DNA of 64,000 bases. Source: Isoetes taiwanensis (taxonomy: Eukaryota; Streptophyta; Lycopodiopsida; Isoetales; Isoetaceae). Of the stretch, positions 27,355-62,187 are shown in pieces. The stretch lies in assembly GCA_021234155.1 (NCBI GenBank), contig JAJEKV010000005.1, positions 14,177,449-14,241,448 on the forward strand, given 5' to 3'. Positions within the stretch are counted from its first letter, which is position 1. The number at the start of each line of letters is the position of its first letter. The notes beneath the pieces are model-generated. The model searched no databases and had not been told where the DNA came from. It saw only the letters and a program-made list of their open reading frames with translations. Both the position numbers and the translations under genes were made by a program.

Positions 27355-27395
27355 CCACAACTATGCCATGTCGCCACACGTTCAATGTTGGTCTT
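27355..27395 (+). mobile_element. damaged Helitron-like 3' end (copy 1)
   Basis: This is the position equivalent to the clean terminus at 53,437-53,467 in copy 2. Here the sequence reads ACTATGCCATGTCGCCACAC and then GTTCAATG, lacking both hairpin arms' CCGG cores and the CTAG. It is either a real loss or a consensus error at a GC-rich hairpin. Confidence 0.45.
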
Positions 27396-28244: not shown

Positions 28245-28331
28245 CAGCCCCCCTCCCCTACGTGGCTGATATCTGGCCGTCCATGTTTGAAATGAAGGGC
28301 TAGGATAGCGCCACGTAGGGGAGGGGGGCTG
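28245..28331. repeat. perfect 22-bp inverted repeat, MITE-like hairpin
   Basis: Arms at 28,245-28,266 and 28,310-28,331 (starting CAGCCCCCCTCCCC) are perfectly complementary around a 43-nt loop. The compact size and GC-rich arms suggest a miniature foldback element, or a transcript hairpin. It lies inside the copy-1-only segment. Confidence 0.85.
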
Positions 28332-29506: not shown

Positions 29507-29625
29507 CACGTTATGTCTTATGCCTTATGTTGTGTAACAAATTTATAGCACGTTATGTCTTATGCTTTATGTTGTGTAGCAAATTTATAGCACGTTATGC
29601 CTTATGTGGGTTCATTGTCCCCCCT
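29507..29625. repeat. 42-bp tandem repeat, three copies
   Basis: CACGTTATGYCTTATG starts at 29,507, 29,549 and 29,591. The first two copies share TTGTGTARCAAATTTATAG and the third is truncated. The period is 42 bp, a multiple of three, so an ORF at 29,257-29,646 stays open across it; I regard that ORF as fortuitous. Confidence 0.85.
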
Positions 29626-29984
29626 ATATTTGTCCACATCTATTGACCTATTTACTAAGAGTTTCTACATCTATTGACCTATTTACTAAGAATTTCTAGG
29701 GGAGCCCACAACTCTTAACATCCCGACATAGGAGTCTATGTCATCACAATAAACCACTTGGTCACATCTTTGGAATCACAACACAACATTTCCTATTGTT
29801 TCATCATCTCAAGGCTGGAAAGACAGAAACAAATATCACCAAAAGTGGTTCGTCGCGCAAAACATATAATTATACAATTAATTTGCTATGGTTTTTTCAT
29901 ATGATTGTGGTGTTGTATCTCTATGAGGGTATGCTAGTAATATTTATAGAGCGCGCTTTGTATTTTTAGTTAGTTTGCCCTCCT

Positions 29985-30345
29985 AACCTTTGGATTGGAT
30001 ATGCATGCCTATGCCCATGTATGCATGGCACCTTCTCTGTCGATCCAATGCATGCATACGCCCCTTCTCCCGATCAATCTTAGGTTTCCATCCACATGCT
30101 TTTGCATGTGAGACCACTTTATATCCAGTGAATCTCACGTTTATATTAACATGTTTTGCCATGCACCTTTGGTTCGGACATGCATGCCTATGTCCATGCA
30201 TACGTAGCACCTTCTGTGTCAGTCAATGCATGCATACGCCCCTTCTCACCCGGTCAATCTTAGGTTTCCATCCACATGCTTTTGCATGTGAGACCATTTT
30301 ACATCCAGTGAATCTCAAGTTCACATTAACACGTTTTTGCATAAA
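29985..30345. repeat. about 180-bp tandem pair rich in TGCATGCA (copy 1)
   Basis: Two adjacent copies contain ATGCATGCCTATG, ATGCATGCATACGCCCCTTC and CACATGCTTTTGCATGTGAG. The last is itself an inverted repeat. The equivalent in unit 2 is at 54,375-54,740. CATGCA is the RY/Sph core bound by B3-domain seed regulators in seed plants; its density here probably reflects the repeat rather than regulation. Confidence 0.8.
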
Positions 30346-31304
30346 AAGTTCCTTCTAGTCCGGTCAATCTCAATCTTCTATTTACATGAATTTGTGATTC
30401 TTTTTATTCTATATTACTCCTTCTTTATGTCGCTCCCCTCCCCTTCCCTCTCTTTGGGATGTTCATGATTGCATTCTTTTTTTTTTCACGAGATCTGAGA
30501 GAAGATGAAGAAGGCATGAATTTGAGTAAATTGCATAGGGCTTTTCACTTTCTATCATCAATCATGTAGTCAAGACACATGCTCACCTTTTTTAGCCACA
30601 TAGGTCTTTTCACATGAGAGCTTTACCCTTTCTCTAGTAAGCACCACGGTTGCAAAACCATTTACCAATGAACCGGTTTGAGAGCATGGGCGCCTTTTAA
30701 GGAGTTGGAGCGGAGTCAAGGATCTGGTAGGTGGTCAATCTATTGTGCAATCTTGACTTCCGACAAGCGTTAGGCGAGGTTAGCATCTTCTATTAGCCTT
30801 AGAGGACCTATAGATTCCAAGATCTTAGCCACTAGCAGAGGAGCCTAACCATGTATGTTTAGGTAGATAGATTAGATGTTATTTTGTATTTGGTTCTATG
30901 GATGAATCTTTCATGTTCCCTTTTCGCAAGGGTAATCAACTTCTCTTGATTTTGAGGTTCTTAACATATTTACTTGCTCTTGAAATTGCAGTGACAGGTG
31001 CTGAATGGTTTTGTAATCATGGTTCAATCCCAGATAAATATCGATTGTAGGTGTAGCTATATTGTGTTAGCTCTATAACTATTTTACATTATTATAGTGG
31101 GTTCAACTCCTAGTCTTTGATTATATTCATGTCCTTCGTCCTTTTCATTCCATCACAACTGTTTTAGTGTCATGCAACACGTGTAAATATATGGCTATTT
31201 TGCTGTGGTTTGCATATATGATTTTGTTGTTATATTTGTGTCACGGTATGTCGATAGTACTTTTAGAGCGTGTGGAGTATTTTTAGTTAGTTTCCACTCA
31301 AAAT

Positions 31305-31405
31305 CTATGGTCTTGACATGTACAAGTGCATGCATTACATGTATACAATGCATGCACACAGTGCATGCATACTATATATACATGCAATGCATGCATATTG
31401 AGCAC
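31305..31405. repeat. CATGCA/TGCATG-rich tract (copy 1)
   Basis: About 100 bp dominated by alternating purine-pyrimidine words (GTGCATGCAT, ACATGTATAC, AATGCATGCA, TATATATACATG). It recurs almost unchanged in unit 2 at 55,705-55,800. It could form Z-DNA or cruciforms; no gene is associated. Confidence 0.7.
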
Positions 31406-31924
31406 CTCTTTTACTTAACGCGGGCAAGGTATATCGTTATTAACATGCTTCTACTTCACACCGTTCAATCCCATGAGTCTTAATGTTGCCATGTCATTGT
31501 TTTGTTGTGGTGTTATGAGAAAAATGTAAAATGGCTTGTCATGCTATTCTCGTTTTTTTTTTTTTTTCTCTTACAAACTAGTATTATTTCATGTTCTATG
31601 GTCCGTCAGCGCTTATTGCAACCTAACCTTGGCCTCACACAAAATAAACGTTAGGCAAAAGACTTGGATCCATATAAACTCTATATATACAAGAAATTTA
31701 TCCGCCAGCCTAAGTTGCCACGAACATTTCTTTAGCTACGACGCTGTGATGCCCTAAACTTCAAGCCTTCTTTAATAAGACACTTATCAATAAGTACATA
31801 AGTAAATCAATAGGAAAAATACGAGAGTTGGACTTGTATTCTTATATTTTGGAGCCCATAGGATAAAGAGATCTTTTTTAGTGCATGATCCTTTTTATTT
31901 CTTACGTCTATTTATTTCATCCAA

Positions 31925-32270
31925 CAGGTTGTCAATGAGTTTGAGCTTGATGGGGATACTCGGTTCGATAACTTAACCACCCAACATCCGCCAAGATGAT
32001 CTCGTATCATTATATACCCTCCTCCCCCCCCCCCCCCTTACTTTTTTTTTTTAGTCTTTGCACATGGTGGAAACCAATGGGTTTTGAGCTTCAACAGGGG
32101 ATACCCGAGGTTGATAGCCTAACCACTAGACTGCCACAGCGATGAATGTTTTTTCCCTTCTCTATTTTTTTTTTTCAATTATCTAGTGGTAGCCAGCGAA
32201 TTGTGAAACTTGAAAGAGGATACCTTGATTCAAAGTCTGACCACTAGGCCAACACCGCGTTGATATAACA
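31925..32270 (-). mobile_element. three head-to-tail tRNA-derived SINE-like units (copy 1)
   Basis: On the minus strand three units of about 100-120 bp follow each other. The first (from 32,265) starts GCGGTGTTGGCCTAGTGGTC; the second (about 32,145) has TCTAGTGGTTAGGCTATC; the third (about 32,010) has GGGTGGTTAAGTTATCGAAC. TGGCCTAGTGG fits the tRNA A box, and TCTAGTGGTTAGG closely resembles tRNA-Glu/Asp 5' regions. About 30-40 nt on, units 2 and 3 have AGCTCAAAACCC-like B boxes; the unit 3 copy in 56,330-56,665 reads AGCTCAAAACTC. The first two units end in A-rich tails (32,166-32,177 and 32,041-32,052 as T runs on +). This fits Pol III-transcribed SINEs nested into each other. An ancient tRNA-gene cluster is less likely because no cloverleaf is complete. 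Confidence 0.5.
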
Positions 32271-32394
32271 TTTTGTTATTTCTTGGTTCATATATTGGTT
32301 TTCCTTTCTAGTCCAGTCAGCTCCACATTTTCTTTAATTTTATCATTGCGAAGCAAAGAAATTCAGGAAGGGACTCTTAAAAGAACACAAAAAC

Positions 32395-32960
32395 CGGCCA
32401 TTCTAAAATTCCATCGATCCGAGCCCTCGGATCGAGATTCTAGAGGGGGCGAGCATGCATGTCACGCATGCATGCATTGCATGCCTTCTACGGTTGGGAG
32501 ATTGCTATATTAGGCGGGGTTCTTCATCAACGTCTCATCGGGCGCTTCCTCTTCTCTCTCAACAATTACCTTATTCTCTTTTATTTGAAACCATGCGGGA
32601 GGGGCTTCTCCCTACTTGGATTGACCAATTTGGCATTTCTTTCATGTTATAGCATGTCCTTTCACCGGCCTTGCCTCTTCTTTTAGCCATAATCCTTTGA
32701 CCTTCGGTCCTCGATCCCGCTTTGATAAGGAAGTTCTCTTCTATTTGGGAGGTTTTTGTCGTTTTCATGCGAGCCCCATTCTAGAATTCCATCGATCCGA
32801 GCCCTCGGATCGAGATTCTAGAGGGGCGAGTCTCATACATATATTGCATGCCTTCTCCACGGTCTTGAAGATCGGCTATATTAGGCGGGGGTTCTTCATC
32901 AACGTCTCATCGGTAACTTCCCTCTTCTCTCTCATTAATACCTTATTCTCTATTCTTTGA
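32395..32960. repeat. about 375-bp tandem pair with ATCGATCCGAG palindrome (copy 1)
   Basis: Two tandem copies begin with a near-perfect palindrome: 10-bp arms TCGATCCGAG/CTCGGATCGA with a 2-nt spacer at 32,414-32,435 and 32,792-32,813. In the second, outer arms CTAGAAT/ATTCTAG extend it. Each is followed by GCATGCCTTCT, ATATTAGGCGGGG and TTCTTCATCAACGTCTCATC. Unit 2 has the same pair at 56,790-57,345. Confidence 0.85.
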
Positions 32961-33339
32961 AACCCACCCTCCCTCCTTTATTGTTTAATCTATTTGTCGA
33001 CCGGGTACGCACGTGACCAGCCCCCTATTTGAAGAGGTTTTTGTTTTGTTGTCGCGATGACACGCGTGATCAGCCCCTCCACTTTGGGAGGTTTATTTTT
33101 GTCACATTTGTTCTAGTGTCGGTGATGTGCGGTGCAGTGTTAGCAAGCGGCGGCGGCATCAGCTTCCACACTCACCCCTTTTTTGGTCCACTTGTTGAAA
33201 ACATCAGTTTTGGTAGGTCTACATGTCTGTTTTTCAAAGAATCCTACATGTGGATTTGTGAAGGTATAGTTTTGTTCGATAATGGTGTTCTTTTTTGATT
33301 GGACTAAAACATCCCTTTGTTGTTTTGTAGTTTCTTCTA

Positions 33340-33835
33340 TTGTGACATGTCATTTTATAATACAATCCAATTTGTAGGAAAGAGTACTTGAATTTCTACA
33401 TGTCTAATAATTCTATTGTCACATGTCTTTATAGATGTAGGAAAGAATATTTGATTCTCTACATGTCCTATACTTCCATTCACATGTCTTTATAGTAGTA
33501 GGACCAGTACTTTATTTTGCTAAGGCATTGTAGGAAAGAATACATGAATTACGACATGTGTAATACTTCTATTGTCACATGTCTTTATAGAAGTCGGAAA
33601 GAATACTTGATTCTCTACATGTCATATGCTTCCATGTCACATGTCTTTATAGTAGTAGGACAGAGTACTTTTATTTGCTAAGGCATTGTAGGAAAGAATA
33701 CATGAATTACGACATGTGTAATACTTCTATTCTCACATGTCTTTATAGAAGTAGGAAAGAGTACTTGATTCTCTACATGTCCTATCCTTCCATATCACGG
33801 GTCTTTATAGTGGTAGGGGGAGTGAGTACTTGATT
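33340..33835. repeat. 158-bp tandem repeat, about three copies
   Basis: TAAGGCATTGTAGGAAAGAA starts at 33,521 and 33,679 (period 158), and a partial earlier copy precedes them. Each copy contains several ACATGTC and CTTTATAG(A/T)AGTAGG words, i.e. a sub-repeat of about 75-80 bp. It lies just inside the 13-kb block that splits unit 1. Confidence 0.85.
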
Positions 33836-33944
33836 TGCTACATGTGATGCGTGCGATCACATGTTCTTATACTAGTATTCCATGTAACACAAGTTACTTC
33901 AACTACTTCAATTACTTAACACCTATTTTTGCATAGCATTGGGC

Positions 33945-35490
33945 ACCAACATGCCAAGGTGGCTCTAACATGCCACCTAGGCTCAAACATGCCAAGGTGG
34001 CTCCAACATGCCACCTAGGCTCCAACATGACAAAATGGCTCCAAACATGCCACCTAGGCTCCAACGTGCTCAAACATGCCACGCAGGGGGCTCCAACATG
34101 CCACCTATGCTCCAACTTGCCAAGGTGGCTCAAATATTACCGCGTGGGCTCCAACATGCCACCTAGGCTCCAACATTCCTAGGTGGCTCAAACATGCCAC
34201 ATAGGCTCAAACATGCCATCTTGGGCTCACTTAGGCTCCAACATGCCAAGGTGGCTCCAACATGCCACCTAGGCTCAAACATGCCAAGGTGGCTCAAACA
34301 TGCCACCTAGGCTCCCAACATGCCACCTAGGCTCAAACATGCCAGTGGCTCAAACATGCCAAGGTGGGCTCAAACATGCCACCTAGGCTCCAACATGCCA
34401 CCTAGGCTCAAACATGCCAAGGTGGCTCAAACATGCCACGTGGGCTCCACCATGCCACCTAGCCTCCAACATGCCAAGGTGGCTCACAACATGCCACCAC
34501 CTAGGCTTAAATATGCCAAGTTGGCTCAAACATGCCACCTAGGCTCCAACATGCCACCGTGGCTCAAACATGCCACCTAGGCTCAAACATGCCACGTGGC
34601 TCCACACATGCCGCGTGCCAGATGACTCCAACATGCCACCTAGGCTCCAACATGCTCAAACATGCCACGGGGCTCTAACATGCCACCTATGCTCCAACTT
34701 GCCAAGGTGGCTCAAATATGCCATGTGGGCTCCAACATGCCAAGGTGGCTCAAGCATGCCACACAGGGCTCCAACATGCCACCTAGGCTCTAACATGGCA
34801 AGGTGGCTCAAACATGCCACGTGGTCTCCAACATGCCACCTAGGCTCCAACATGCCAAGGTGGCTCAAACATGCCACCTAGGCTCCAACGTGCTCAAACA
34901 TGCCAAGGTGGCTCAAACATGCCACGTGGGCTCCAACATGCCAAGGTGGCTCAAACATGCCACCTAGGCTCAAACATGCCAAGGTGGTTCCCACATGCCA
35001 AGGTGGCTCCAACATGCCACCTAGGCTCAAACATGCCAAGGTGGCTCAAACATGCCACCCTAGGCAGCAACATGACAAAATGGCTCAAACATGCCACCTA
35101 GGCTCCAACGTTAACTCAAACATGCCACGGGCTCCAACATACCACCTATGCTCCAACTTGCCAAGGTGGCTCAAATATGCCACGTGGGCTCCAACATGCC
35201 ACCCTAGGCTCCAACATTCCTAGGTGGCTCAAACATGCCATCTAGGCTCCAACATGCCACCCAAAATTCAAACATGCCGTGGCTCAAACATGCCAAGGTG
35301 GGCTCAAAACATGCCACCTAGGCTCCAACATGCCAAGGTGGCTCAAACATGCCACCCACGGGCTCCAACATGCCAAGGTGGCTCAAACATGCCACCTAGG
35401 CTCAAACATGCCAAGGTGGCTCCAACATGCCATCAGGGGCTCCAACATGCCAAGGTGGCTGGGGCATGCCACCTAGTCTCAAGCATGCCA
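33945..35490. repeat. 19-bp minisatellite array 1 (forward orientation)
   Basis: About 80 units of 19 bp, of two main alternating types: GGCTCCAACATGCCACCTA and GGCTCAAACATGCCAAGGT. The core GCCACCTAGGC of the first is, but for one base, the reverse complement of GCCAAGGTGGC in the second, so neighbouring units can pair as a hairpin with an 8-nt loop. Variants with CCACGTGG also occur. Because stops are missing from the unit, long open frames run through on both strands and encode a 19-residue periodic peptide. I treat these as by-products. Confidence 0.95.
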
Positions 35491-35640
35491 CCTAGGCACC
35501 CCAAGTGGTGACATGGCATGCCAAGTGCCAAGGCAAGGTCAAGTTTTGACTAGGCCAAAAACCAAAGATGTCCATCTTTGGTCTTTTCATGGGTGGTGAT
35601 GGCAAATTTTGGGTGACATGGCTAGATGATGGTGACATGG
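35490..35640 (+). repeat. cassette flank F, copy 1
   Basis: A 150-bp sequence (CCCCAAGTGGTGACATGGCA, then AAAGATGTCCATCTTTGGTC, then GGCTAGATGATGGTGACATG) that borders array 1. Its reverse complement lies at 37,860-38,015 and again at 41,380-41,515, and in diverged form at 43,130-43,262. It always adjoins, or once adjoined, minisatellite DNA, so it acts as a boundary module. Confidence 0.85.
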
Positions 35641-35724
35641 ACCTTGGATGTCTTTGCAAACAAGGCGGGCACCTCCGGCGGGCCCCCTTTCTTGTGAAGG
35701 GGAGTCTCCGAAAGGTATATATGC

Positions 35725-36935
35725 TGGTGCATTTTCTCTTGCGTATGCAGCGTCATGCTGCACATCCTGCCAAGATTTCACCTTTTTTCGAGACCCGGAT
35801 TTTTATCTGTGTTTTTCTTTGTGTTTATGCTCCGGAAATTCATAATTAATGCATGGGGTGGGGAAAAATCCTGGTTTTCAGCCAGCTGGCTTGCCAAGGT
35901 GGCCTTGGCGTGCAGGAAAATCCCCGGTATTTTTCGGGCGAGCTTTAGACCCTCGATTTTTTATTGGGATGGCCCTAGGCTGGCCTCGGCGGGTTTAGAC
36001 CACGTTTTCGATTTTGGGGCATGGAGGAGGCCCCGGATTGGCGATCCGACCTCTCCACATCGTCTGGAACGCCGAAATTACCCTAGAGGACAAGTTTCAC
36101 TACCAAACCTTCCCCGGGGATCAATCACTTACCCCACTACTAGGAGGTATTCAAATCCACCTCCATGCCAATTGACTACAAGTGTGTAGTAAACCACCTA
36201 CTTTGGCGTTTCTTGGAGAGGGGTGGTCTTACGCCCACCAAAACTTGGTCTCCTAGGTAATGGGGATGTTCGGGTCCATTGGCGAGCCGGTTCGATTCCA
36301 GGGTGGGGGTCCGGCCCTCAGTCCCTCGGCCCCGGCTTGGACCTCAACTGCGAGAACAAGATACTTGGGGTCACCCCCCGAGGCCCAGGTAGAAGATCGA
36401 AGTGAGAGTAGCAACACTAGGGACTGCTAGGTGGTATACATGTGACCACGCGGAGAAGCAAAGCTAGCTCCATGGCCCGATGGGGCGTTACCGACCCGGT
36501 GGCCTCCCGGAAGGGGTTGGCTCGGGCTTCGTCTCATGCCTCGCTTGTGCTTCTATTGCCGGTGCATTTTCTCTTGCGTGTGCAGCGTCATCATGCACAT
36601 CCCCGCCAAGATTTCACCTTTTTCGAGACCGGATTTTTATCCGTGCTTTTTTCTTTGTGTTTATGATCCGGAAATTCATGATTAATGCATGGGGCGGGAA
36701 AAAATCATGGTTTTCAGCCAGCTGGCTTGCCAAGTGGCCCCGAGCATACAGGAAAATCCCCGGTATTTCCGGGTGAGCTTTAGACCCTCGATTTTTGATT
36801 GGGATGGCCACCGCTGGTCCGCGAGGCGGTTTAGACCACGTTTTTATTTTGGGGCATGGAGGAGGCCCCGGATTGGCGATCCGACCTCTCCATGTCATCT
36901 GGAATGCCGAAATTACCCTAGGGGACAAGTTCCAC
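35725..36935. repeat. direct repeat pair of about 400 bp with spacer
   Basis: Segments 35,725-36,130 and 36,555-36,935 are close direct copies (GCATTTTCTCTTGCGT, GATTTCACCTTTTTTCGAGA, GGAAATTCATnATTAATGCA, TTTTCAGCCAGCTGGCTTGC, GAGGAGGCCCCGGATTGGCG, GAAATTACCCTAG). The region between them (36,130-36,400) and the end of the first copy are related to the palindrome arm at 39,420-39,720 (AAACTTGGTCTCC, GGGGTGGTCTT). A GGTTCGATTCC string at 36,289 matches a tRNA B box but has no A box in place. Confidence 0.85.
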
Positions 36936-36955
36936 GGCCCTCTTGATCAGAGGAG

Positions 36956-37790
36956 CATCCCCAGAATGTAAATCCTACCAAACCCTAGGGTTTGGTAGGG
37001 TTTACATCTCGAGCGTCAAGACGGAGACTAACACATCCGAAACTTTGCATGTTCTCTGCGTATGCTGCGGGGACCATGCCCTGAGATGGGGTCAAATCCC
37101 CAATGCGGCATGCTTTTCCGCACTCCCCTTCACCGGAAGGGGCTTGTGAAGGGGAGTTCCCCAAAGGTATCTTTGACCGAAATTTGGCTCTGTCTCCCGA
37201 TGCCATGAGGGTAATCCAAAGACGGGTATTCCACGTCCGATCCCGGGCCCTCGGGTCATCCGAACATCCCCTATGTAAACCCTATCAAACCCCTAGGGTT
37301 TGCTGGGGTTTACATCTCGGCTTCAAGACGGAGACTCACACATCCGAAACTTTGCATGGAGTTCTCTGTGTATGCTATGGGGACCATGCCCGGAGATGGG
37401 GTCGAATCCCCTAGCTAAAGATGCTTTTCCGCACTCCCCTTCCTTTGGAAAGGGGCTTGTGAAGGGAGTCTCCTAAAAGGTATGCTACACCGGAAATTTG
37501 GCTCTGCCTCCCGTGCCATGAGGGTAATCCGGCCACGGGTATTCCACGTCGAGATCACGGGCCCTACGGGTCATCCAGCATCCCCATAATGTAAACCCTA
37601 TCAAACCCTAGGGTTTGCTAGGGGTTTACATCTCGAAAGCGTCAAGGCGGAGACTCACACATCCTAAACTTTGCATGGGTTCTCGTGTATGCTCACGGGG
37701 ACCATGCCCTGAGATGGGATCGAATCCCCTGCAAGAACATGCTTTTCCAGACTCCCCTTCACTGGAAAGGGGCTTGTGAGTTCTCCAAGA
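36956..37790. repeat. about 310-bp tandem repeat, three copies, with AAACCCTAGGGTTT core
   Basis: Copies start at about 36,956, 37,265 and 37,579 (periods 309 and 314; the third is truncated). Each has a palindrome built of GTAAACCC, AAACCCTAGGGTTT and GGGTTTAC (36,980-36,993, 37,287-37,301 and 37,603-37,616), GGAGACTnACACATCC, a GGGGACCATGCCC segment, and CTTCACYGGAAGGGGCTTGTGA-like sequence. AAACCCTAGGGTTT is two plant telomere units (TTTAGGG) head to head, probably by coincidence of a palindrome. Confidence 0.85.
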
Positions 37791-38015
37791 TCCTTCTATT
37801 CTATCCCTTGCCAAACTCCTCTACAAAAATTTCAAAGGTTATCATATTTCTTGCATAAAGTCCTAGTCACGTCACCACCATCTAGCCATGTCACCCAAAA
37901 TTTGCCAACATCACCCAATGAAAAGACCAAAGATGGACATCTTTTCATTTTTGGCCTAGTCAAAACTTGGCCTTGCTTACTTGACATGCCATGTCACCAC
38001 TTGGAGTGCCTAGGC
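37785..38015 (-). repeat. cassette flank F, inverted copy 2
   Basis: Reverse complement of flank F (37,860-38,015), preceded by TCTATCCCTTGCCAAACTCC and AAATTTCAAAGGTTAYCATA. The same composite sequence recurs in the same orientation at 41,295-41,515. At its minisatellite junction the array continues in the forward orientation, whereas at 41,515 it is reversed. The switch point is the palindromic word GCCTAGGC. Confidence 0.9.
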
Positions 38016-38337
38016 TCCAACATGCCACCTAGGCTCTAACATGCCAAGGTGGCTCAAACATGCCACGTGGTCTCCAACATGCCACCTAGCTCCAACATGC
38101 CAAGGTGGCTCCAACATGCCAAGGTGGCTTAAACATGCCACCTAGGCTCCAACGTGCTCAAAAATGCCAAGGTGGCTCAAACATGCCACGTGGGCTCCAA
38201 CATGCCACATAGGCTCCAACATGCCATGTGGGCTCCAACATGCCAAGGTGGCTCAAACATGCCACCTAGGCTCAAACATGCCAAGGTGGCTCCCACATGC
38301 CAAGTTGGCACCTAGGCTCGAGCATGCCACCTAGGCA
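38016..38337. repeat. 19-bp minisatellite array 2 (forward orientation)
   Basis: About 16 units of the same 19-bp pair as array 1, same orientation, including the CCACGTGGGC variant. It is bounded left by inverted flank F and right by hairpin H1. Confidence 0.95.
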
Positions 38338-38495
38338 TGTGTGTTTAACAAAGGTGCACCTAGCTATCTGAGAAACGATCACATTTTGGCCTCCCAAACG
38401 TAAACCCTACAATAACCTAGCAACACCACGGGGTTTACGTTTGAGGCCAAACGTTATCGCCATTAGATAGCTAGGTGTGCCTTGCTAAACACACA
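38338..38495. repeat. hairpin H1 (inverted repeat, arms about 65-70 bp)
   Basis: The left arm, TGTTTAACAAAGGTGCACCT to AAACGTAAACCCT (38,341-38,409), pairs with the right arm, GGGGTTTACGTTTGAGGCC to GTGCCTTGCTAAACACAC (38,430-38,494). The loop contains ACAATAACCTAGCAACACCA. Related hairpins are at 38,696-38,815 (left arm replaced), 39,815-39,900, 40,101-40,260 and 40,465-40,545. Confidence 0.9.
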
Positions 38496-38504
38496 TCTTG
38501 AATC

Positions 38505-39020
38505 CATGGCCCCGAAATAACGAGTTTGGATCTATTGGCCATCCCAATGATCCCAAACAATTTTGCTCTTGCAAAAGGCGCTCTTGACTTCTAATTGCCA
38601 CACTGGGAGGAGGATAACTCCAAACCCCATTCCATCAGTTCCTATTGCTTCATGTTCACAATTGCATCTTCTCAACCATGACCCAAGTGCAACCGACTAA
38701 AACTCGACCCCCATAACGTAAACCCTTCAATAACCTAGCAACACCACGGGGTTTATGTTTGGAGAATAAAACATGGTCGTTTTCTTGGATAACTAAGTGC
38801 ATCTTTTCGAAACATGCATGAGGAGCCATGGCAACTGAAATAACAGAGTTTGGATCTATTGGTCATCCCGAATGGTCCCAAACAATTTTGCTACTACAAA
38901 AGGCGCTCTTGACTTCTAATTGCCACACTCGGAGGAGGATAAATCCAAACCCCATTCCATGGGTTCCTATTGCTTGCGTGTTTTCAAGCTGCAACTTCTT
39001 GACCATATCTCAAGTGCAAC
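38505..39020. repeat. two direct copies of 190-bp repeat A with a half-hairpin between
   Basis: Repeat A (GAGTTTGGATCTATTGG, CAAACAATTTTGCT, AAAAGGCGCTCTTGACTTCT, CCCATTCCAT, CAAGTGCAACCG) lies at 38,505-38,696 and 38,828-39,020. Further copies are at 39,895-40,090 (inverted) and 40,265-40,465 (direct). Hairpin-like modules alternate with A, giving an H-A-H-A order. Confidence 0.9.
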
Positions 39021-39029
39021 CGAGGGGCT

Positions 39030-41331
39030 GCAGAGGAGTTTGGCAAGGGATAGAATAGAGGGAACTTGAAGAACTTAAAGCGCTGACACCCTTCCCCAAA
39101 TCGAACCAGGCCAAGACTTTGCGCGGCTTCCTCACCAGAGGGGAGAGCCCGGACCACAGGAGACAGACCTTAGAAAGGTTGTCGAGGCAGCCTTTCCTGT
39201 CAACGCTCCTCCGGGAGGGCAAATGCCAATGCCCTTCCCCCCCTCCTCCCAAGCTCGGTTTCCCTATCCGGCCGTTGAATCCGGCATTCAAGTAACTTTT
39301 GAGCGAGGTTCAAAAAAATCCAAGATCGGTCCGAGAGAACTTATCAAACCGTGAAGCGTCCTGCGGTCGACAGTGTAGAAACCCAAATGTTTTATCTTTC
39401 GGGCAGTACAAAGACTCCGGAATGGAGATTCGACTTTGCCATATCATCTGAAATGTCGAAATTACCCTAGGGGCCAAGTTATACGGTCATTTTTTGCAAC
39501 GAAAGAAACACGAACCCTCTACATGGCAACCAATTGACTACGAACCTGTTGGACATGAGCGACTTTCGCACTTCTTGGAGAAGGGGTGGTCTTCTGCTCA
39601 CGAAACTTGGTCTCCATGGTAGTATCGACATTTTGAATCCATTGGCAGTGTCAGTTCACAGGTCTGGAGTGGGAGAGTTGCCCGTCTGTGGCCAGGAGCC
39701 TTCGGGAGAGGACCTTTGGGGCGAACTGCTTCCGGAAGGTTTTAAGGGTGCTTCTTCTGGTATCAATACCCTCCCTCTACCTGATGACATTACGCAAGGT
39801 CCTGGTTGAATCTGACTAGGATATGGCCTCCGAAACGTAAACCCTGTGTGTTGCTAGGTTATTGAAGGGTTTACGTTATGGAGGTCGAGTTTTAGTCAGT
39901 TGCACTTGGGACATGGTCGAGAAGCTGCAGTTGAAAACTCGAAGCAATAGGAACTGACGGAATGGGGTTTGGATTTATCCTGCTCCCAATGTAGCAATTA
40001 GAAATCAAGAGCGCCTTTTGCAGTAGCAAAATTGTCTGGGATCATTCGGGATGGCTAATAGATCCAAACTCTATTATTTCAGTTGACATGGCTCCATATG
40101 CATGTTTAGAAAAGGTGCACCTAGTTATCTAAGAAAACGACCACGTTTTGGCCTCCGAAACATAAACCCTACAATAACCTAGCAACACACAGGGTTTATG
40201 TTTCGGAGGCCAAAACGTGGTCGTTTTCTTGGATAACTAGGTGCATCTTTTCTAAACATGTGTGCGGAGCCAAGCCAACTGAAATAACAGAGTTTGGATC
40301 TATTAGCCATCCCGAATGATCCCAAACAATTTTGCTACTGCAAAAGGTGCTCTTGACTTCTAATTGCCACCTTTCGGGGAAGATAAATCCAAATCCGTTC
40401 CCTCGGTTCCTATTGCTTCACATTTTCAACTGCAGCTTCTCGACCATGTCCCAAGTGCAACCGGCTAAAACTCGACCTCCATAACGCAAAACCTTTCAAT
40501 AACCTAGCAACACCACGGGGTTTAAATTTTGGAGGCCAGATCCTAGTCGATTCGACCGGGATCTTGCACAATGTCATCACGTAGAGGGAAGGTGTTGATG
40601 CGAAAGATGGACCCTTAAAACCTTCCGAAGTAGTTAAGCCCCAAAGGTCCTCTCCCGAAGGCCCCACACGGGCGGCAACTCTCCCACTCCAAAATCAGAA
40701 CCGACTTTGCCAATGGACTCAAAATGTCGACTTTACCACAGGGACCAAGTTTCGGGGCGTAAGACCACCCCTTCTTCAAGAAGCACCAAAGTAGCTCATG
40801 TCCAACACGTTCGAGTCAATTGGCCTAGGAGGTGGGCTGCGGAAATACCGCTATATAGAGGGTTAGTGTTTCTTTTCGTTGCCAAAAATGACCATGTAAC
40901 TTGGTCCCTGGGGTAATTTCGCCATTCCAGACGACGTGGCGAAGTTGAATCTCCATTCCAGAGCCTTTGTACTGCCCGAACGACAAAACACTTGGTTTTC
41001 TACGCGGTCAACCTGCCGGACGCTTCGTGGTTTGATAAGTTCTCCCAGACGGGATCTTGGATTTTTTGAGCACGCCGAAGGCGTTACTTGAATGATGGAT
41101 TCAGCGATTGGGATAGGAAAATTAAGCTCCCGGGATTGGTATTTGCCCTCCCAGAGGAGCGCTGATAGGAAAGGCTGCCTCGACAACCTTTCTGAGGTCC
41201 ATCTCTTGGGTGCGGCCTCTCCCCTCGTGTGAAAAGGCGCACAAAGTCCCGGCTTTGGTTCGATTTGGGGAAAGGTGTCGGCGCTTTAAGTTCTTCAAGA
41301 TCCCTCTATTCTATCCCTTGCCAAACTCCTC
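39030..41331. repeat. 2.3-kb imperfect palindrome centred at about 40,180
   Basis: Each arm is about 1,150 bp. Left-arm landmarks (CAAGGGATAGAATAGAGGG at 39,047; ACTTATCAAACC at 39,338; GGTGGTCTTCTGCTCACGAA at 39,586; GGAGAGGACCTTTGG at 39,704; repeat A at 39,895-40,090) are met in reverse-complement order on the right (repeat A at 40,265-40,465; CCAAAGGTCCTCTCCCGAAG at 40,641; GTAAGACCACCCC; GGTTTGATAAGTTC; CCCTCTATTCTATCCCTTG at 41,312). The two ends are equidistant from the centre. The arms have diverged by substitutions and small indels, so the palindrome is not an assembly mirror of a single read. ORFs in it (for example 40,863-41,186 on -, 107 aa) show no recognised domain. Confidence 0.92.
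40101..40260. repeat. central hairpin H3, 70-bp arms, 20-nt loop
   Basis: Arms 40,101-40,170 and 40,191-40,260 match at 68 of 70 positions by my hand alignment. The loop is ACAATAACCTAGCAACACAC. The arms carry CATGTTTAGAAAAG, CACCTAGTTATC and AAACGACCACGTTTTGGCC. The arms are far better conserved than the outer palindrome, so H3 is a recently formed hairpin or a younger MITE sitting at the symmetry centre. Confidence 0.95.
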
Positions 41332-41515
41332 TACAAAAATTTCAAAGGTTACCATATTTCTTGCATAAAGTCCTAGTCATCATATCCATGTCACCATCAT
41401 CTAGCCATGTCACCTACATCACCCAATGAAAAGACAAAAAATGGACATCTTTTCATTTTTGGCCTAGTCAAAACTTGACCTTGCTTACTTGGCATGCCAT
41501 GTCACCACTTGGGGT
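41295..41515 (-). repeat. cassette flank F, inverted copy 3
   Basis: Near-identical direct copy of 37,785-38,015 joining the right end of the palindrome to array 3. Unlike copy 2, it passes into the minisatellite in the same (reverse) sense as at 35,490. Confidence 0.9.
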
Positions 41516-42715
41516 GCCTGGGTGGCATGCTTGAGCCTAGGTGGCATGCATGAGCCACCTTGGCATGTTGGAGCCTAGATGGCATGTTGGAGCCTGCGTG
41601 GCATGTTAGAGCCACCTTGGCATGTTTGAGCCTAGGTGGCATGTTGGAGCCCACTTGGCATGTTTGAGCCCACCTTGGCATGTTTGAGCCTAGGTGGCAT
41701 GTTAGAGCCACAGTGGCATGTTGGAGCCTAGGTGGCATGTTTGAGCCAACTTGGCATATTTAAGCCTAGGTGGCATGTTGGAGCCACCTTGGCATGCATG
41801 TTGGAACCTAAGTGAGCCTGCATGGCATGTTTGAGCCTAGGTGGCATGTTTGAGCCACCTAGGAATGTTGGAGCCTAGGTGGCATGTTGGAGCCCACGTG
41901 GCATATTTGAGCCACCTTGGCAAGTTGGAGCATAGATGGCATGTTGGAGCCCGCGTGGCATGTTTGAGCACGTTGGAGCCTAGGTGGCATGTTTGAGCCA
42001 CTTTGTCATGTTGGAGCCTAGTTGGCATGTTGGAGCCACCTTGGCATGTTTGAGCCTAGGTGGCATGTTAGAGCCACCTTGGCATGTTGGAGCCCACGTG
42101 GCATGTTGGAGCCCACGTGCCATGTGTGCCAACATGCCAAGGTGCCTCAAATATGCCATGTGGGCCAACATGCCAAGGTGCCTCAAATATGCCAAGGTGC
42201 CAACATGCCAAGGTGCCTCAAATATGCCAAGCTGCCAACATGCCAAGGTGCCTCAAATATGCCATGTGGGCTCCAACATGCCAAGGTGGCTCAAACATTC
42301 ATCTTTGCTCCAACATGCCACCTAGGCTCAAACATGCCAAGGTGGCTCACAACATTCCACCTAGGCTACAACATGCCACCTAGGCTCAAACATGCCACCT
42401 AGGCTCAAACATGCCAAGGTGGCTCAAACATGCCATGTGGGCTCCAACATGCCACCTAGGCTTCAACATGCCAAGATGGCTCAAACATGCCACCTAGACT
42501 CCAACATGCCAAGATGGCTCAAACATGCCACCTAGACTCCAACATGCCAAGATGGCTCAAACATGCCACCTAGGCTCCAACATGCCACCTAGATTCCAAC
42601 ATGCCATTTAGCCACCCTGGCATGTTTGAGCCACCTTGGCATGTTGGAGCCTAGGTGGCACGTTTGAGCCACCTTGGCATGTTTGAGCCACCCTGGCATG
42701 TTTGAGCCTAGGTGG
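41515..42715. repeat. 19-bp minisatellite array 3 with two orientation switches
   Basis: Units run in reverse orientation (TTGGAGCCTAGGTGGCATG) from 41,515 to about 42,118, in forward orientation from about 42,130 to 42,608, and in reverse again to about 42,715. The switch points are at GCCCACGTGCCATGTGTGCC and at GCCATTTAGCCACCC. Between 42,128 and 42,260 a sub-variant (CCAAGGTGCCTCAAATATG) is locally amplified. Confidence 0.95.
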
Positions 42716-43054
42716 GGAGCAACTCCCCGGGCTCTGTCACAGAATTTGGTATGCATTGACGTTGTACAATTTGGTAGTTGAAAACCACTGGATTGGTTTT
42801 TTGGTACCCATTGACATGATGGGGTCAAAACATGCCACAAGTCTTTTCCATACGAAGCAACTAGTCAAACCCTTGACATAATGCCTTGGGGGATTACTCC
42901 GTGACTAAGAAGGCAAGGGAAGACAATAACATACCACACAAACATAACTATACCCTATCGGGGGACTTATATCACCAACATACGAATACCTATTGAGAGT
43001 TACCACCACAAGTTGACATTAAGCACGAAGGCCCCTTTTGGTAACAAAAAACTT

Positions 43055-43262
43055 ATTTAAGTTCTTAAAGTTCCCTCTATCCCTTACCAAATTCCTCTAC
43101 CGAGAACTCTGAAGGTAGTTGTATTTCTTGATTTATCAATTTCTTGCAAAAAAAATCCTAGTCATCATGTCTATGTCATCCAATGAAAAATCAAAGATGT
43201 ACATCTTTTATCATTTTTGGCCTAGTCAGAACTTCACCTTGTTGACTTGGCATGCCATGTCA
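43055..43262 (-). repeat. diverged cassette flank F, copy 4
   Basis: Weak but colinear match to 41,295-41,515 (GTTCCCTCTATCCCTTACCA, TTTTTGGCCTAGTCAGAACT, GACTTGGCATGCCATGTCAC). After CACTAGTCACATGTGGCATG no array follows. It may be an older copy of the module that lost its minisatellite. Confidence 0.8.
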
Positions 43263-43264
43263 CT

Positions 43265-46190
43265 AGTCACATGTGGCATGTTATGATAACAAAGAATTTT
43301 ATACACTTTTGGTAGTAAATGACTAGGTTAATCTTTGTACAAAGGGGTTTTCTAGGTCAAAAAATAGGAAATTGGACAATTTAGCCAAGCAGATCAAAAG
43401 GAGATGACAAAGTAATGGCAGAAATGGGAAAATGGAGTAAAAAACCATCAATCATCAATGAATATAATCGAGAACTCAATTAAGGTTTGGTCACGCGTGA
43501 AAAAGAAAAAATGATAGTTTTATGCAGCATGATAAAAGCTGCATTATATAGAGCGGTCGAGAAGAACGACCCAAAATATGTTATGCAATCTTTCATTTCA
43601 GCCCTCCTTGGAGCGATGTTAGCCTATACTCTAGTCAATCTTAGGGTATCAAGGTTCGAAGCCACCAACTTAGATGGTTGGAGCCTTCATATCCCTTTGC
43701 CATAGGTTTAAGCCGAAATTTAAGATAAAAGTTGGCTTCGGATAGATAATAATGTTATGGTAACAAGGCTTGAGTGCCTACATCAACTCAACTGGAAACC
43801 ATTGACATGGGCATTGCCATGTCAAAGCTATTTTGATTGAAAGAGAGAAACAATTAAACCATATGCCGAGGAATAAAACATATGTCGAGGAAAAAAATAG
43901 TGGTCATTCTGGTGTGGGAAAACAATATAACATCCAACGGCTAGGATTAATAAGATGAATGGCCAAGATGGCGATCCTCGCCCTTTGTTCTTATTGGCTC
44001 TAGAATTGACGGCCGAGATTAACAGGCAGATCATGATCCCATTCTTCCCGCCTTGCCGACTTGCCGCATTTGCCATGGCGCCCCTTGCCCTTCTTCCCGT
44101 TCTTCGCTCCTTGCTGACTTGCCGCCTTTGCCATGGCATGCTCAATCCCAGATGGGCGAGCACAAGGGTCTGTAACAGCCTTTGCTATGGCATGCTGAAT
44201 CCCAGATGTCACATTGGTGGCTCTGTAACAGCTCTCAGATTTTCGCCATCATGGACTAGATGTTTCTAGTTAGGACGAGGTCGCATTGGTGGCTCTGTAG
44301 CAGCTCTCAGATTTCCGCCATCAGGGACTTTAGAGGCAACGTTGGAGTAAGCTATGGGATTTCTGGCGATGGCAAGACAAAAACAGCTTATGCTTACCAT
44401 ACATAAGGATATTTTGGAATCTGCGCAGTGCTTCTGCTGGACAAAACTTCGGATTTTGCTCATTTCTCTGTGGCATCCAAGGACTGGTATGAATGAATCC
44501 ATTCAAATGCCTTTTGGAAAAGGAAACCTGCATGCAATTATGAGATACTCTATTGTTTCAATAAATCCTTGGAAGTTTCGCAGTTCCCTATGACAAGGTA
44601 AAACGTTGGGTTTTTTTTTTCGCAGTTTCGCAGATGACAAGGTAAACATTGGGGTTTTTTTTAAGCATATGAGCTTTCAGGTCTTTGATTATTGTGTCGT
44701 GTAGCAAGATCTGATCCATTTTGTGATGGATTTGCAGAGCAATGGCTGCCTTGCGACTTGTGCGCCTTGCTATGAGGCTTAAATCATCGGGTAACCAACA
44801 TTTACTCTCAGCAGCTCACTGGAATGATGCATCTCCAGCCTTGCATGGCCAAGAACAGCATACATCTCTTTTCCATTTTGGCTCTTTGCAATGATGGAGT
44901 TACAGATTAAAGGCTATCTAAAACAGATAAGGTATCTCTTTACCCTTTTTTTTTTTTCTGTAGCCCTTCCCGAACATGAATCATTCTTATCTTTTTCCTT
45001 TTTCCTCAGATCTCTTAAGGACTATAGCGGTTGCTAGCATTTAAGCTACACTCAGATCTACACATACTCCTGTTTAGCTTTGGATCACACTGCAACTAGG
45101 GTAAATGGGAATTTCATTGGCTTAATAGAATAGATTTAATAGAACAGTTCTATTTTATGCAAAATAATTGAAAAGGCGTACAAGACTCCCATGTCTAGAA
45201 TCTTTGCATTATCATAATCTACCATAACATTCTCGCAAAGTAGTAAATCCAGTTCAAGCTATTAAACATTGTGAAGTTGTACCATAAAAGAATGTTTCCG
45301 CTAGTTTCACAATGTAATCTCAAAGCTATTACGAGAATAATAGAACACATAAAAACAAATTGTACCTTTTAATGCACATTCATTTAGTTGTACAATGAAA
45401 ATACAATTATGAAATGTCTTAAGTAGTTTGCTTAAGAATAGAAACTTAAAAATTAGATTTGGTTGCAGTAAAAAAAAACATTATGTCTAAAATGGAATTG
45501 TTTGGGTTCAGTTCCCAAAAGGCTTTATTAAGATATGAATATAATTTGTGGTTATTTTTATTTTATTAAAATATTATTTTATTTAAAACTATGTGTTGTT
45601 TTGTAGACTGAAAGAGGCCATGGGTGGTTTTTTATTTTCTTGGCAAAAACAACACGTGTTGTTTTGTAAACTAAAAGAGGCCATGGGTGGCTTTTTATTT
45701 TCTTGGCAAAAACAACACTTGAACATGTGCATTATTGAGAAAAACAACATTTGAAACATCACTTCTTTGCATCTCTATGTGTTGTTATCTATGTGTTTAT
45801 TTAAAAAATAGGACACATGTCAATATTTCATTACTTACAAGGCATATTGGAAACAACACCTCGTTTTTTCTATGTGTTATAATAATGCTTTTTTACATGT
45901 CCTTATTTTAAAAAATCAATATTTAATAGCATAAAAAACAATAGCAAGATTTTAATAACATATGTGGTATTTTGCTAAATAACATGTAACTATTTATAAA
46001 AAACAATCTTACTTTCATGTTGTAATTTTGTTTTTCACGTTAATAATGTAATAATATCGAAAAACCTCACGCATATGTAATTTTTTTTATGCGTCAGGAT
46101 AAACAAGGCATGGCTCCGCTAAAAACAACGATTGAAGGAAAAAAAAACACGTTGACAAAAAAACAACCACAAAAACTATGTCAATTTTTT
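43265..46190. other. AT-rich tail of the 13-kb block; small repeats, no recognised gene
   Basis: ORFs at 43,487-43,705 (72 aa, Lys/Glu-rich start) and 44,354-44,593 show no known domain. Around 44,085-44,335, words such as TTGCCATGGC(A/G), TGCTCAATCCCAGATG and GTGGCTCTGTARCAGCTCTC are each repeated two or three times. At 45,598-45,718 a segment with GTGTTGTTTTGTARACT and GAGGCCATGGGTGG is tandemly duplicated (period about 60 bp). The remainder is AT-rich with AACAAC words. Confidence 0.4.
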
Positions 46191-47195
46191 TTGGGAGCTA
46201 TCGTGGATTTTTTTTTCCTCGCCAAAAGACCACGGTGATAAGCTTTCGGCGTACACACAAACCAAACATCTATTAGCATTGTATTTCATGGGGTCCAAGT
46301 TGTATAATTGATATTCCCTTTATTTTTCTTAGATTTTTTGCCAAAAAAAACCCCATAGGAACAATGTCGGGTCCCTTTAAAAACCGACTTTGCAAATCGG
46401 TCGCCAATGGCCCTCAATGCCCTCGAAGAGTAAGATAATGCCCTTCAAGATAAACGGGCCCGTGGTCTTTTGGGGCCATTTTGGTGTTGTTTTTGACATA
46501 AAACAACATCAATGGTATAAGTCTATATGATAATGAAACTGTAAACAACAAACACTGCCATGAGCTTGCATTGTGAGGGCTGGTCTCTTATCAAAGAGGT
46601 ATCTTACTGGGAGAAAAAAGTAGGACAACATCCTTCACAAGCAATAGGCAGCATAGTGAATAGGATGAAGCAACCCCTTTCTTCCTCGACTTTAGCAACA
46701 TAACTGTTAAGCCCATGGAGCATGGAGCATAATCTTAGGAGCATGCTCGGGAATAATCCTTGCCCCTTATTCCAGACAGAGTTCAAGCATTAAGAGTTAG
46801 AGGACGGGGAAGAAAATTCAATGGCCATTCAAAAAGCATGCCACTATTCTGGGATGCACATCGGAATCAAGAGTAAGAAAATGGCAATGTAAAATGAAGA
46901 ATTATGATGTAGATATCAATTTTTTTCAAATCTGTATTTAGCTACTGTCTATTATAGCTTGTGGAAATTCTGCAGGTATGCCATTGCCAAAACTGTTCTT
47001 GACTGTAACAAAAAACATGTTTTTTTTTTTTTATTGTGACAAAAAAACAGTGAGCTACTTTTTAGTGTAACAAATTTTTTTTTTTTGCTCATTTGGTATT
47101 TCTTTTGCTCATTTGGTATTTCTTTTGCTCATTTGTTATTTTCTTTTTTATTTTTGCAACTTGTGATCACCATGAGCACTAATAGGAAAAGAAAG
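46190..47195. repeat. 11-kb duplicated unit, copy 1, right part
   Basis: Matches 57,560-59,470: GGTGATAAGCTTTCGGC (46,234 and 57,671), CATTGTATTTCATGGGGTCC, AACTATTCTGGGATGCACAT-type landmarks, and a TTTGCTCATTTGGTATTTC 22-bp triple repeat (47,085-47,140). About 0.8 kb of sequence at 57,930-58,770 of copy 2 is missing or unrecognisable here. Confidence 0.85.
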
Positions 47196-48032
47196 CATAA
47201 CACAAGGCCCCCAAAATTGAACCATTATGATTTTTTCTTAATGGTTTATTGGTGAAAACCGAATTTATAAATCAGTACATGTTAGTGGGTTCAAAAGTTT
47301 ACAAACCATGTCTAGTTATCTAATATGGTTCATCAACATATTTTTCTAAAGTGATAAGACAATATTGTTTTATGACATGGTATTGAAACATGGCAATTTT
47401 AATTGGTCTCTGTAACAACTTAAACTATATAATTTATCAATATAGTTTTCGAAAGTGATAAGACAACATTGTTTTATGGCATGATATTGAAGCATGGCAA
47501 TTTTAATTGGTCTATGTAATAACTTAAACTATATGATATGTATTACTGTTTAGTACGTCGAGTTTATTAAACTGGTATTTGACCATATCTATCTTCTTTA
47601 ATATATTGCCATGGTAATTTTAGATGCATAATTCTCATGATTTTTTAGAGTGATTAATCACGCCAATACACAATGTGGTAAATCTTCTTGTTTAAAATAT
47701 GCTAATATGACTTTTTTAATCCTATTTTTCTCCATGGTTTCCGAAAATGCTAGAAATAACACATAGTTTTCAAGTGTGGTTTTCAGACGTAGAACATTGG
47801 TGTGGGTGTTCAATCAAGTGTGATTTTAAAATGTAGTTTTTACAAATAGAAGATTTGTGTGGTTTTCAATCGGGTGTAATTTTCAAGTGTAGTTTTCACA
47901 AATAGAAAACTTGTGTGGTTTCCAATTGGGTGTGGTTTTCAGGTGTAGTTTTCACAAATAAAAAACTTGTGTGGTTTTTTTAAGTATTATTCACGTGTTA
48001 TTTGATTTGAGAAGGGGGATTGTTTTTAGAGC
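47196..48032. repeat. spacer between duplicated units with two tandem repeats
   Basis: This stretch is unique to the junction of the two units. It contains a 111-bp tandem pair (about 47,350-47,545: GTGATAAGACAAnATTGTTT, CATGGCAATTTTAATTGGTC) and a 50-60-bp repeat in three to four copies (47,775-47,985: GTGTAGTTTTCACAAATA, ACTTGTGTGGTTT). No gene is seen. Confidence 0.75.
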
Positions 48033-48699
48033 ATTGCACTTACTAAATTCTTAAATCTCCTACTCTTCCTCTCTGCCACTCCACTTTGTGAATGCATAGG
48101 GAATGATTAGCTTCCTATATGTATAAAATCATTATTACATAATTTTCCATTCTATGACTTTTAACCCTATCTGGTTCTCAATGAAAATAGGCAGTTTTGA
48201 GAAGAAACAATCCTTGCTGCAACCACTTCTGCTGTAATTGTGTGGATCTGTAGGATGGCTCTCTCTAATTAGCTGCAAACTTGAAGGGTTGGTTGACACA
48301 GTTTGCTTTTTTCCACATATATGTAATGCGCTCCTTTGGCATGGCATGTGATAATCTCAGAAACTCTATAGAAGCAATGTAGCATTCATATAAATATTAA
48401 TTTGCAAAAGAAGGTAATGAATATACCAAAGAGCCCCATGGTCTTCCTTTATGACTGGAAACAGGAGGTACAAGCTCCAAAACCTGCAGTGAATTTGGAA
48501 TTGTCCCGTTTTTCTTCTCAGTACCAAAGAAGATTCGGAAGTAGCCAAGGCATCTGGATCTGTTCAAAGTCGAACTAGAAAGGCACTTCAGGACATTCGA
48601 AATGCAGTGGGCACCAGAATTCAAGAGAAATAAGAGTAAATCATTGACTCACTTACCATGTTTTTAAGCTTACCAATGTAGGCTTATTATACTGCTGAA

Positions 48700-50415
48700 G
48701 GTGACTAGAGATGATCTTGAAGGAAGAAAACCAGATTCATTGGATAGCCACATCACAAGGTTTGTTTCTTTGCATTTGCTTTACAATACTTTTTGTTCTA
48801 TGTTTGACTTAAAAAATTCATGCAAGTTTTCTGGATCTAAGGTAGAGCTGTCGCTGTCTATGGTTAATAGACCCATTACTTGGTATGTTACAATGTGGCT
48901 ACATTTTGAAGGCTGCGGAAGTATTTTTCTAACATATTTATCAGGTGATTCCATCAGGAGGTTTTCTGCTCGGCTAGCAATTAATCAGGCTAGAACAGCA
49001 AAGGTTCAAATGATACATTCTCAAAATTCTTAAGAAGACCGTTCTTCGCTATTAGGGTAAGTACCTCCATTTTCTGGAATTTCGGTCTTACTTAGATTTT
49101 GTACATGCTTTCTCCTTTTCCTAAAAGTAGTATCACTGCTACTCTTTGATTCTAACTTCCAGTTGCTTAACCCATTCCTACAAATGTTTCTGTTTCTCCC
49201 TCACTTCAAGTAGCATCAGCTTCACAAAAAAGATAACACATGCCATCTTTTGTTTTCCAAATGCTTCTAATTCTTGCATCTTATTGCAAGCATCTCCTCT
49301 AAATTTGTTTGAAAATAGGAAGTTGTTAAACTGAGCTCAAATTTAAAGCAAGCGATGGATATGCTTGCAGAATCCATGCCTTTCCATGATTATCTTGAAT
49401 CAAAACAAAAACTAAAACATCATTAGTTGATTTTGTTGGGTTTTGTATTCAGAGTTGCTTCGTCCACAAACCTACTCGACCTGTTCGCGCAAACTCATTT
49501 GATGTACACATTATTACAACTCCATGCTTCCATGGTGTTTTTGTCTTTATTTCTTAAAGAAGGCAGGCAAGTTTGGCTTTCAGGGATCTGAGCTAAAATG
49601 CAACTTCTTTTGCTTGGATCTTGACGATTCTCTTCAGAAGAAGCAAGTTACAATTTTTAATATTCTTGCGTTCTTAGAGATTTTGAGAGTTTGGCAATCT
49701 TATCCTCATTTGTTTTTGTGGAGCAGTTTCCTGGAATTATGGTTCTTTCTCAATTCTCTACTAGCAGCAGCTTCGGGTCGTTGGCCTTCTCTTGCGAACA
49801 GGAGCAACATCACATGCGGAATCATTGCTTACCTTTAGCAGGATTATATGGAGAAGATCGAATCCTGCTTTATCACCAAACAACAACTCACAAAGAGGTA
49901 ATTTTCAACCATAATTTTAGTACTAGAGTCTTTAATTTCTTCTGGAAGATTTCTAGCAAAGATAATGGTAGCATCAACAAGAATCAAACAGTTAATTTTA
50001 AGCGATGAATTTGAAGAATTTAGTTTAAACGCACGCTTCCACTCTGCCATGCCTCTATATGTCAACTTTCTATGAAGGTTATTTGTGTCTAGAGATGTTT
50101 CAAAGGAAGAAAATCAGATCCACCATCTTTGGATCGCCACAACACAAGGTTTTTTTCTTCTTGAGAATACTTTTTGTGCTACTTTTGACTTAAAGTTTGG
50201 TCAAAGGTTTTTAGATCTAAGGTGGAGTCACATTCTTTGCTGTGGTTAATAGGCCCATTATACTATATATTACAATGCCTATTTTGAAGCTTGAGGAAGC
50301 ATTTCTCTTTTACATATTTATCATGTGACTCCATCAGCAGGTTTTCTGCTCAGTTAGCAATCAATCAGGCTGCAACGGCTACCAAAACCAAAGTACGAAT
50401 GATATCTTTCTAGGT
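48700..50415 (+). pseudogene. exon fragments of unknown gene, unit 2 copies
   Basis: Counterparts of the unit 1 exons: TRDDLEGRKPDSLDSHITR (48,703 on), DSIRRFSARLAINQARTAK (about 48,947), VVKLSSNLKQAMDMLAESM (about 49,322), FVEQFPGIMVLSQFS (about 49,710), FVSRDVSKEENQ (about 50,081) and DSISRFSAQLAINQAATAT (about 50,331). All but the FVEQ frame are flanked by plausible splice dinucleotides. The product is unknown, with no recognised domain. The repeated exon pairs suggest an internally duplicated, captured gene segment. Confidence 0.4.
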
Positions 50416-62180: not shown

Positions 62181-62187
62181 ATAAGGG

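Follow-up and report, generated by a model that had tools for sequence, protein, structure and literature searches.

A probable non-autonomous CACTA-like transposon family underlies a composite repeat block in Isoetes taiwanensis

Introduction

Is a dense block of tandem arrays, hairpins, repeated modules and a giant palindrome a single mobile element, and if so, with which kind of ends does it move? This question is raised by a stretch of 64,000 nucleotides of the Isoetes taiwanensis genome (contig JAJEKV010000005.1, positions 14,177,449 to 14,241,448; hereafter the window, in whose coordinates all positions are given). A first-pass annotation of the window had proposed a single insertion-like element with several internal modules at 33170..46190, devoid of a transposase and built according to a Foldback logic. 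Comparison of this block with other places of the same genome allowed us to define its ends, to follow its modules from copy to copy and to weigh this reading against others.

One element in many copies

The 1.658-Gb assembly was searched with a 3-kb query taken from the left side of the block. At least 20 other places cover essentially the whole query at 90-94% identity and at least two cover most of it, besides shorter matches; with 30 of 4,989 candidates scored, these counts are lower bounds. For 10 of the 11 best places 20 kb of sequence was fetched (K02 to K11), which together with the window copy gives the set of 11 copies compared here. Patterns for flank F and the 19-bp array had no match among viral contigs, nor did the array pattern among prokaryote genome contigs, both collections being plant-free by their description. 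A literature search by the letters of the terminal inverted repeat (TIR) and of the array yielded no paper, and among the papers listed by a search with topic words none has a title on such an element.

All 11 copies display a constant left order, made of the terminus, three 158-bp repeats, a 1.5-kb array of 19-bp units, an inverted flank F and a tandem of repeat A. Beyond this tandem, the inner modules differ among copies in both presence and order. The proposal of a single insertion-like element with several internal modules is borne out by this shared left series, which was found in order at 10/10 other copies; modules solely dispersed independently of one another, the outcome that the first-pass annotation had named as fatal to its reading, are not what these copies show for the left series.

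Modular organization of the window copy

The arrays, flank F, hairpin unit H, repeat A, 310-bp repeat and palindrome named by the first-pass annotation are all present in the sequence. The element opens with the left TIR (CACACTCACC..., 33167..33197, plus strand), CACACTCACC standing at the left end of all 10 fetched copies. After it stand three subterminal repeats of 158 bp, in which GACATGTC-type motifs abound (33372..33840, plus; threefold in 11/11 copies), then the left subterminal 19-bp array of ~1.5 kb (33948..35460, plus), with 52-58 counted cores in 11/11 copies, and an inverted copy of flank F (35508..35641, minus), likewise in 11/11. The next module is a tandem arrangement of repeat A, a middle segment and repeat A (35722..36935, plus), whose A units (35722-36100 and 36557-36935) have diverged relatives inside the palindrome arms; across the 11 elements, repeat A is present in 2 to 5 copies. 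An assignment of the A-mid-A repeat to LTR or TRIM elements was rejected by eye, as it displays no TG...CA ends or target repeat.

Further inwards lies a 310-bp tandem repeat in 2.6 copies, each with a AAACCCTAGGGTTT-type hairpin (36953..37779, plus), which is present in 10/11 copies, K05 being the exception. Flank F stands directly after it (37779..37997, plus), as it does in 6/11 copies (window, K02, K03, K06, K08 and K10). An internal 19-bp array (38013..38309, plus) and two tandem hairpin units H (38342..39023, plus) come next, several whole and partial copies of H being spread between 38342 and 40538. The giant imperfect palindrome (39029..41335) is one inverted match centred at 40182, 81.5% identical over 2,370 columns (E 0.0), and its arms, 84% identical without gaps over 1,122 aligned bases, comprise a scrap of F, an outer segment, a relative of repeat A and H. 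This relative of repeat A occurs in both orientations, marking both arms, in three of the 11 copies (window, K05 and K08) and in one orientation in seven (K03, K04, K06, K07, K09, K10 and K11); it is absent from K02, and K04 additionally holds an outer-segment scrap of the other arm.

To the right of the palindrome, flank F (41285..41505, plus) is followed by internal 19-bp arrays of alternating orientation (41522..42708), namely minus at 41522-42125, plus at 42129-42606 and minus at 42610-42708. Among the copies the inner arrays vary from 3 units, the lower limit of the script, to 84, whereas the left array is near-constant. A cargo-like interior with approximate boundaries (42720..45490, plus) contains an old F copy of only 71% identity (43056..43263, plus). 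As described in the first-pass annotation, flank F is thus present in four copies and two orientations, to which we add a 51-bp scrap at 39029-39079. The right subterminal region, rich in AACAAC/GTTGTT (45491..46186, plus), has parts recognizable in 9/10 fetched copies (not K03). It gives way to a mosaic in which the right end of the element and host sequence of the empty site are interleaved (46187..46460), and then to the last recognizable right-end piece (46461..46508, plus), the terminal ~50 bp with the right TIR being absent from the assembly.

Termini and target-site duplications

The termini of the family consist of an inverted repeat of ~30 bp, CACACT...AGTGTG, located outside the arrays. 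When a representative left end, CACACTCACCCCGGTTTTTGGTCCACTGTTG, is set against a right end taken in the inward direction, CACACTGACCCCGATTTTTGGTCCACAGTTG, 28 of the first 32 positions agree. In eight fetched copies out of 10 both ends can be read, K03 and K04 lacking a readable right TIR as the window copy does, and all eight are bordered by identical 3-bp target-site duplications (TSDs): CTT, CAG, ACA, GCA, ATA, GAC, CAA and TAA. These eight elements measure 9.5 to 14.9 kb.

Allowing up to 3 mismatches, the TIR pattern in both its forms has 1,635 matches in the genome (825 forward, 810 reverse), and the reversed control has none. A hand count of the 100 exact matches listed gave 84 left-type, 12 right-type and 4 mixed ends; right ends may diverge more, or get lost more often, than left ends. 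The left side is made of arrays and 158-bp repeats and the right side is rich in AACAAC; counting either strand, words of this type occur in the rightmost 1 kb of 8/8 copies. Since the two sides differ in content, the long arrays are not terminal inverted repeats.

Empty site and right junction

The window contains a local tandem duplication, 23595-33169 (copy 1) and 48030-57548 (copy 2), continued at 46510-47199 and 58782-59471, with 95-96% identity in four stretches. Each duplicate has indels of its own, among them ~1.7 kb of additional sequence in copy 2 (51247-52930) and in copy 1 (28003-29730). The true left end of the element is 33167, flanked by the 3-bp target site TTC (33164..33166), which is matched by the empty site in copy 2 at 57545/57546 (TTC|GACTTC). 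The suggestion that the junction in copy 2 could serve as an empty-site model therefore holds on the left side, where TTC at 57543-57545 is followed by GACTTCTCC. As copy 2 is empty, the local duplication most likely preceded the insertion of the element into copy 1, the alternative being an exact loss from copy 2. Under a later insertion, the older divergence within the palindrome would have arrived together with the element.

On the right side, the sequence 46187-46510 switches ~11 times between the element right end, as found in K02, and the empty-site sequence of copy 2, while remaining collinear with both. Chained exact matches over 46183-46448 reach 161 for the host and 67 for the element, against shuffle maxima of 43 and 34 (300 mononucleotide shuffles each). 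In this segment the assembly has probably blended two haplotypes, or copies 1 and 2, into one consensus, with patchy conversion as an alternative, and the assembled right junction should be handled with caution. The mosaic makes the right boundary of the first-pass annotation unreliable: 46190, with TTTTTTGGGAGC at 46187, is one switch point within it. The block itself stands, from 33167 instead of 33170 and with recognizable element sequence up to 46508. An 8-bp duplication of TTTTTTGG (33179 and 46187) was dropped as a target site in view of the left end at 33167, revealed by comparison with other copies, and of the right mosaic.

Other features were observed in the window outside the element. 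Copy 2 has a short inverted repeat of ~60 bp (57627-57689 / 57988-58049; score 60 against a shuffle maximum of 26, n=500), possibly a small inverted-repeat element. Remnants of a hAT-type transposase occupy 60023-62885, with DUF659 (E 6e-34) and a hAT dimerisation domain (E 9e-10). No match in the window was obtained with Rfam at its gathering thresholds or with a tRNA scan.

Conserved ends and a changing interior

Identity between copies amounts to 95-99% over the left 770 bp (all 11 copies), but to 70-94% for the relative of repeat A in the palindrome region. At the right end, mean identity is 97% for the last 120 bp and 70% for the segment 250-450 bp inwards (28 pairs, 8 copies). K08 was also compared with the 10 other sequences in 250-bp bins, scored by best local matches, so that within tandem repeats a unit may have been paired with a non-equivalent one. 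Identity is 94-100% in the first bin and exceeds 90% in most bins across the 158-bp repeats and the left array (lowest 81%). The bins of repeat A lie at 84-95% and those of the 310-bp repeat and F, where present, at 86-100%; the last two, near 6 kb and under the same caveat as they fall in an inner array of K08, reach 79-85%.

The turnover is most visible between the inner arrays and the right end. Among 10 interiors compared (that of K03, cut at its second left end, may include flank), K07 and K11 form the sole pair with similarity across most of the interior; counting matches above 150 bp, three other pairs have 213-357 bp in common. Short common matches of at least 40 bp reach back ~2 kb from the right ends of K04 and K10, so the interiors are not all wholly unrelated. 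Of the 10 fetched copies, K02 alone shares a long part of the cargo-like interior of the window copy, at 98% identity over 43264-45000; K04 has one weak match of 78 bp.

Two copies depart from a simple layout. In K03 the left end is followed, after 12.75 kb, by another one of like orientation. No right end was seen between the two, and this copy is a candidate for a fused or nested element pair. K04 has a shortened right TIR adjoining an inverted 19-bp array and a 158-bp repeat, as if it were joined to a second, inverted element.

Coding content

Thirty open reading frames (ORFs) were scanned with Pfam (10 of the 45 ORFs of the window copy, 20 of the 41 ORFs of the other copies' interiors), and none passed a curated cut-off or was transposase-like; the earlier statement that the block has no transposase holds for the ORFs scanned. 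When compared with the PDB, one interior ORF of K04 resembles plant UDP-glycosyltransferases (48 distinct sequences up to E 0.1, best 4.3e-6); against Pfam UDPGT it scores 16.4 bits, below the 19.5 cut-off. A second piece resembling, by eye, the same glycosyltransferase motif lies in another frame, and the occurrence of such pieces in two frames points to a broken fragment. K04 carries this fragment but is without a complete right TIR. By this weak match in a broken frame, a capture of host sequence is modestly indicated in one of the 10 interiors.

Within the cargo of the window copy, a short ORF at 44742-44891, starting MAALRLVRLAMRLKSSG just past a TTTGCAG, looks by eye like an exon with a mitochondrial targeting start. 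It is possibly a captured host exon.

Relationship to known transposons

In our view, the block very probably belongs to a family of non-autonomous DNA transposons that move by cut and paste and behave like CACTA (En/Spm) elements of the Tpn1 type. Of the features by which CACTA elements are recognized, the 3-bp TSD is found in 8/8 copies with both ends readable, and closely spaced direct and inverted subterminal repeats are represented by the direct 158-bp and 19-bp repeats on the left and by the inverted 19-bp arrays further in. The TIR is short and inverted, yet it ends in CACACT and not in CACTA, for which reason we speak of a CACTA-like family and not of an established member of the superfamily.

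Other explanations have to be weighed against this one. A cut-and-paste transposon of another superfamily with 3-bp TSDs (PIF/Harbinger, Zator or Academ) would account for a TIR beginning with CACACT instead of CACTA. PIF/Harbinger elements, however, prefer TWA/TNA targets, which the eight TSDs do not fit, and a CAC terminus combined with long subterminal repeats is the CACTA pattern, so that we regard such an assignment as unlikely. In a Foldback-type element, long inverted arrays and the palindrome would be the functional termini that fold back. There is indeed a 2.3-kb palindrome, and the left array with F (34952-35641) recurs inverted in the right F and array (42128-41385), with 81.5% identity over 763 bp. 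This reading is nevertheless very unlikely, as the conserved termini lie beyond the arrays, by ~0.8 kb on the left and by almost 4 kb on the right, and copies with one palindrome arm or none (K02, K06, K07, K09, K10 and K11) still have identical 3-bp TSDs, against the 8-10 bp of Foldback/Mutator and P types. Long TIRs of tandem units reaching the ends, the hallmark of Foldback elements, are not what the copies display: their TIRs are short and outside the arrays, and with both palindrome arms in only 3/11 copies the Foldback logic of the first-pass annotation had to be abandoned.

The reality of the structure itself deserves the same scrutiny. The interleaving of two parental sequences at 46187-46510 does suggest a merged consensus, and one might extend the suspicion of an assembly artefact to the palindrome or to the block as a whole. 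The mosaic, however, is confined to the right 320 bp, K05 and K08 have both palindrome arms at other loci, and arms of 84% identity are too diverged for a recent inverted-duplication assembly error, which leaves the artefact highly improbable. A chance nest of unrelated repeats would be in keeping with the unequal divergence of the modules (three F pairs at 93-95% and one at 75%, A at 88%, H at 82-86%, the arms at 84%), but is practically untenable in the face of the same-order left series at 10/10 other loci, next to inner modules that vary in presence and order.

Among the closest counterparts of the CACTA-like family is the Tpn1 family of Ipomoea nil, which is En/Spm-related. According to the relevant passages of PMC5105172, Tpn1 elements are non-autonomous as well, with TIRs of 28 bp (~30 bp here), 3-bp TSDs, repetitive subterminal regions and lengths of many kb, and they retain their ends while swapping the interior for host sequence. 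The family described here differs by its CACACT ends, by palindromes in some copies and by a long left module region of roughly 4 to 7 kb made of the 158-bp, 19-bp, A and 310-bp repeats; no autonomous partner was found here. The Jozin CACTA elements of Chenopodium, as portrayed in sections of PMC8978399, also combine subterminal repeats with captured gene fragments and captured tandem arrays. An intact CACTA motif and a putatively functional ORF were the criteria by which they were selected, while our copies end otherwise and had no such ORF among those scanned. Pack-CACTA elements of Arabidopsis likewise hold host sequence between CACTA-type ends, and the origin proposed for them in part of a review (PMC13317346), the fusion of neighbouring damaged elements, would suit K03 with its second left end 12.75 kb on. 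The Tetris foldback element of Drosophila virilis resembles the present family in being non-autonomous, with tandem repeats and a variable middle; in the portion of PMC4079207 that describes it, these repeats sit in long terminal inverted repeats, whereas our family combines a short TIR with repeats in subterminal position.

A model for the family

In En/Spm, TnpA binds the subterminal repeats and TnpD the TIRs (PMC5105172, in the passages on these proteins). By analogy, a transposase supplied in trans would bind the ends of the elements, with the left 19-bp array and the 158-bp repeats as the subterminal binding region. The putative binding role of the left array is suggested by its near-constant size in 11/11 copies while the inner arrays vary. 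The inner modules, the inner arrays in two orientations and the palindromes could have arisen as side effects when arrays recombined and gaps were repaired. The inner arrays and the right end might enclose a slot, which host segments would enter through interrupted gap repair or, alternatively, through the fusion of neighbouring damaged elements.

More tentatively, and as a possibility that we would not call probable, the family could be a cargo platform with constrained ends, a near-fixed left array and one slot in which host DNA is exchanged again and again by recombination through the inverted inner arrays. Many copies throughout the genome would then carry different host segments, and CACACT would mark a distinct CACTA-like lineage.

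Conclusions

What appeared as a baffling repeat block can now be approached as a defined and countable transposon family with an empty site. It offers a clear case of near-identical ends set against the turnover of the interior. If the slot model is true, the family would constitute a natural record of the host DNA that has been captured and moved within the genome.
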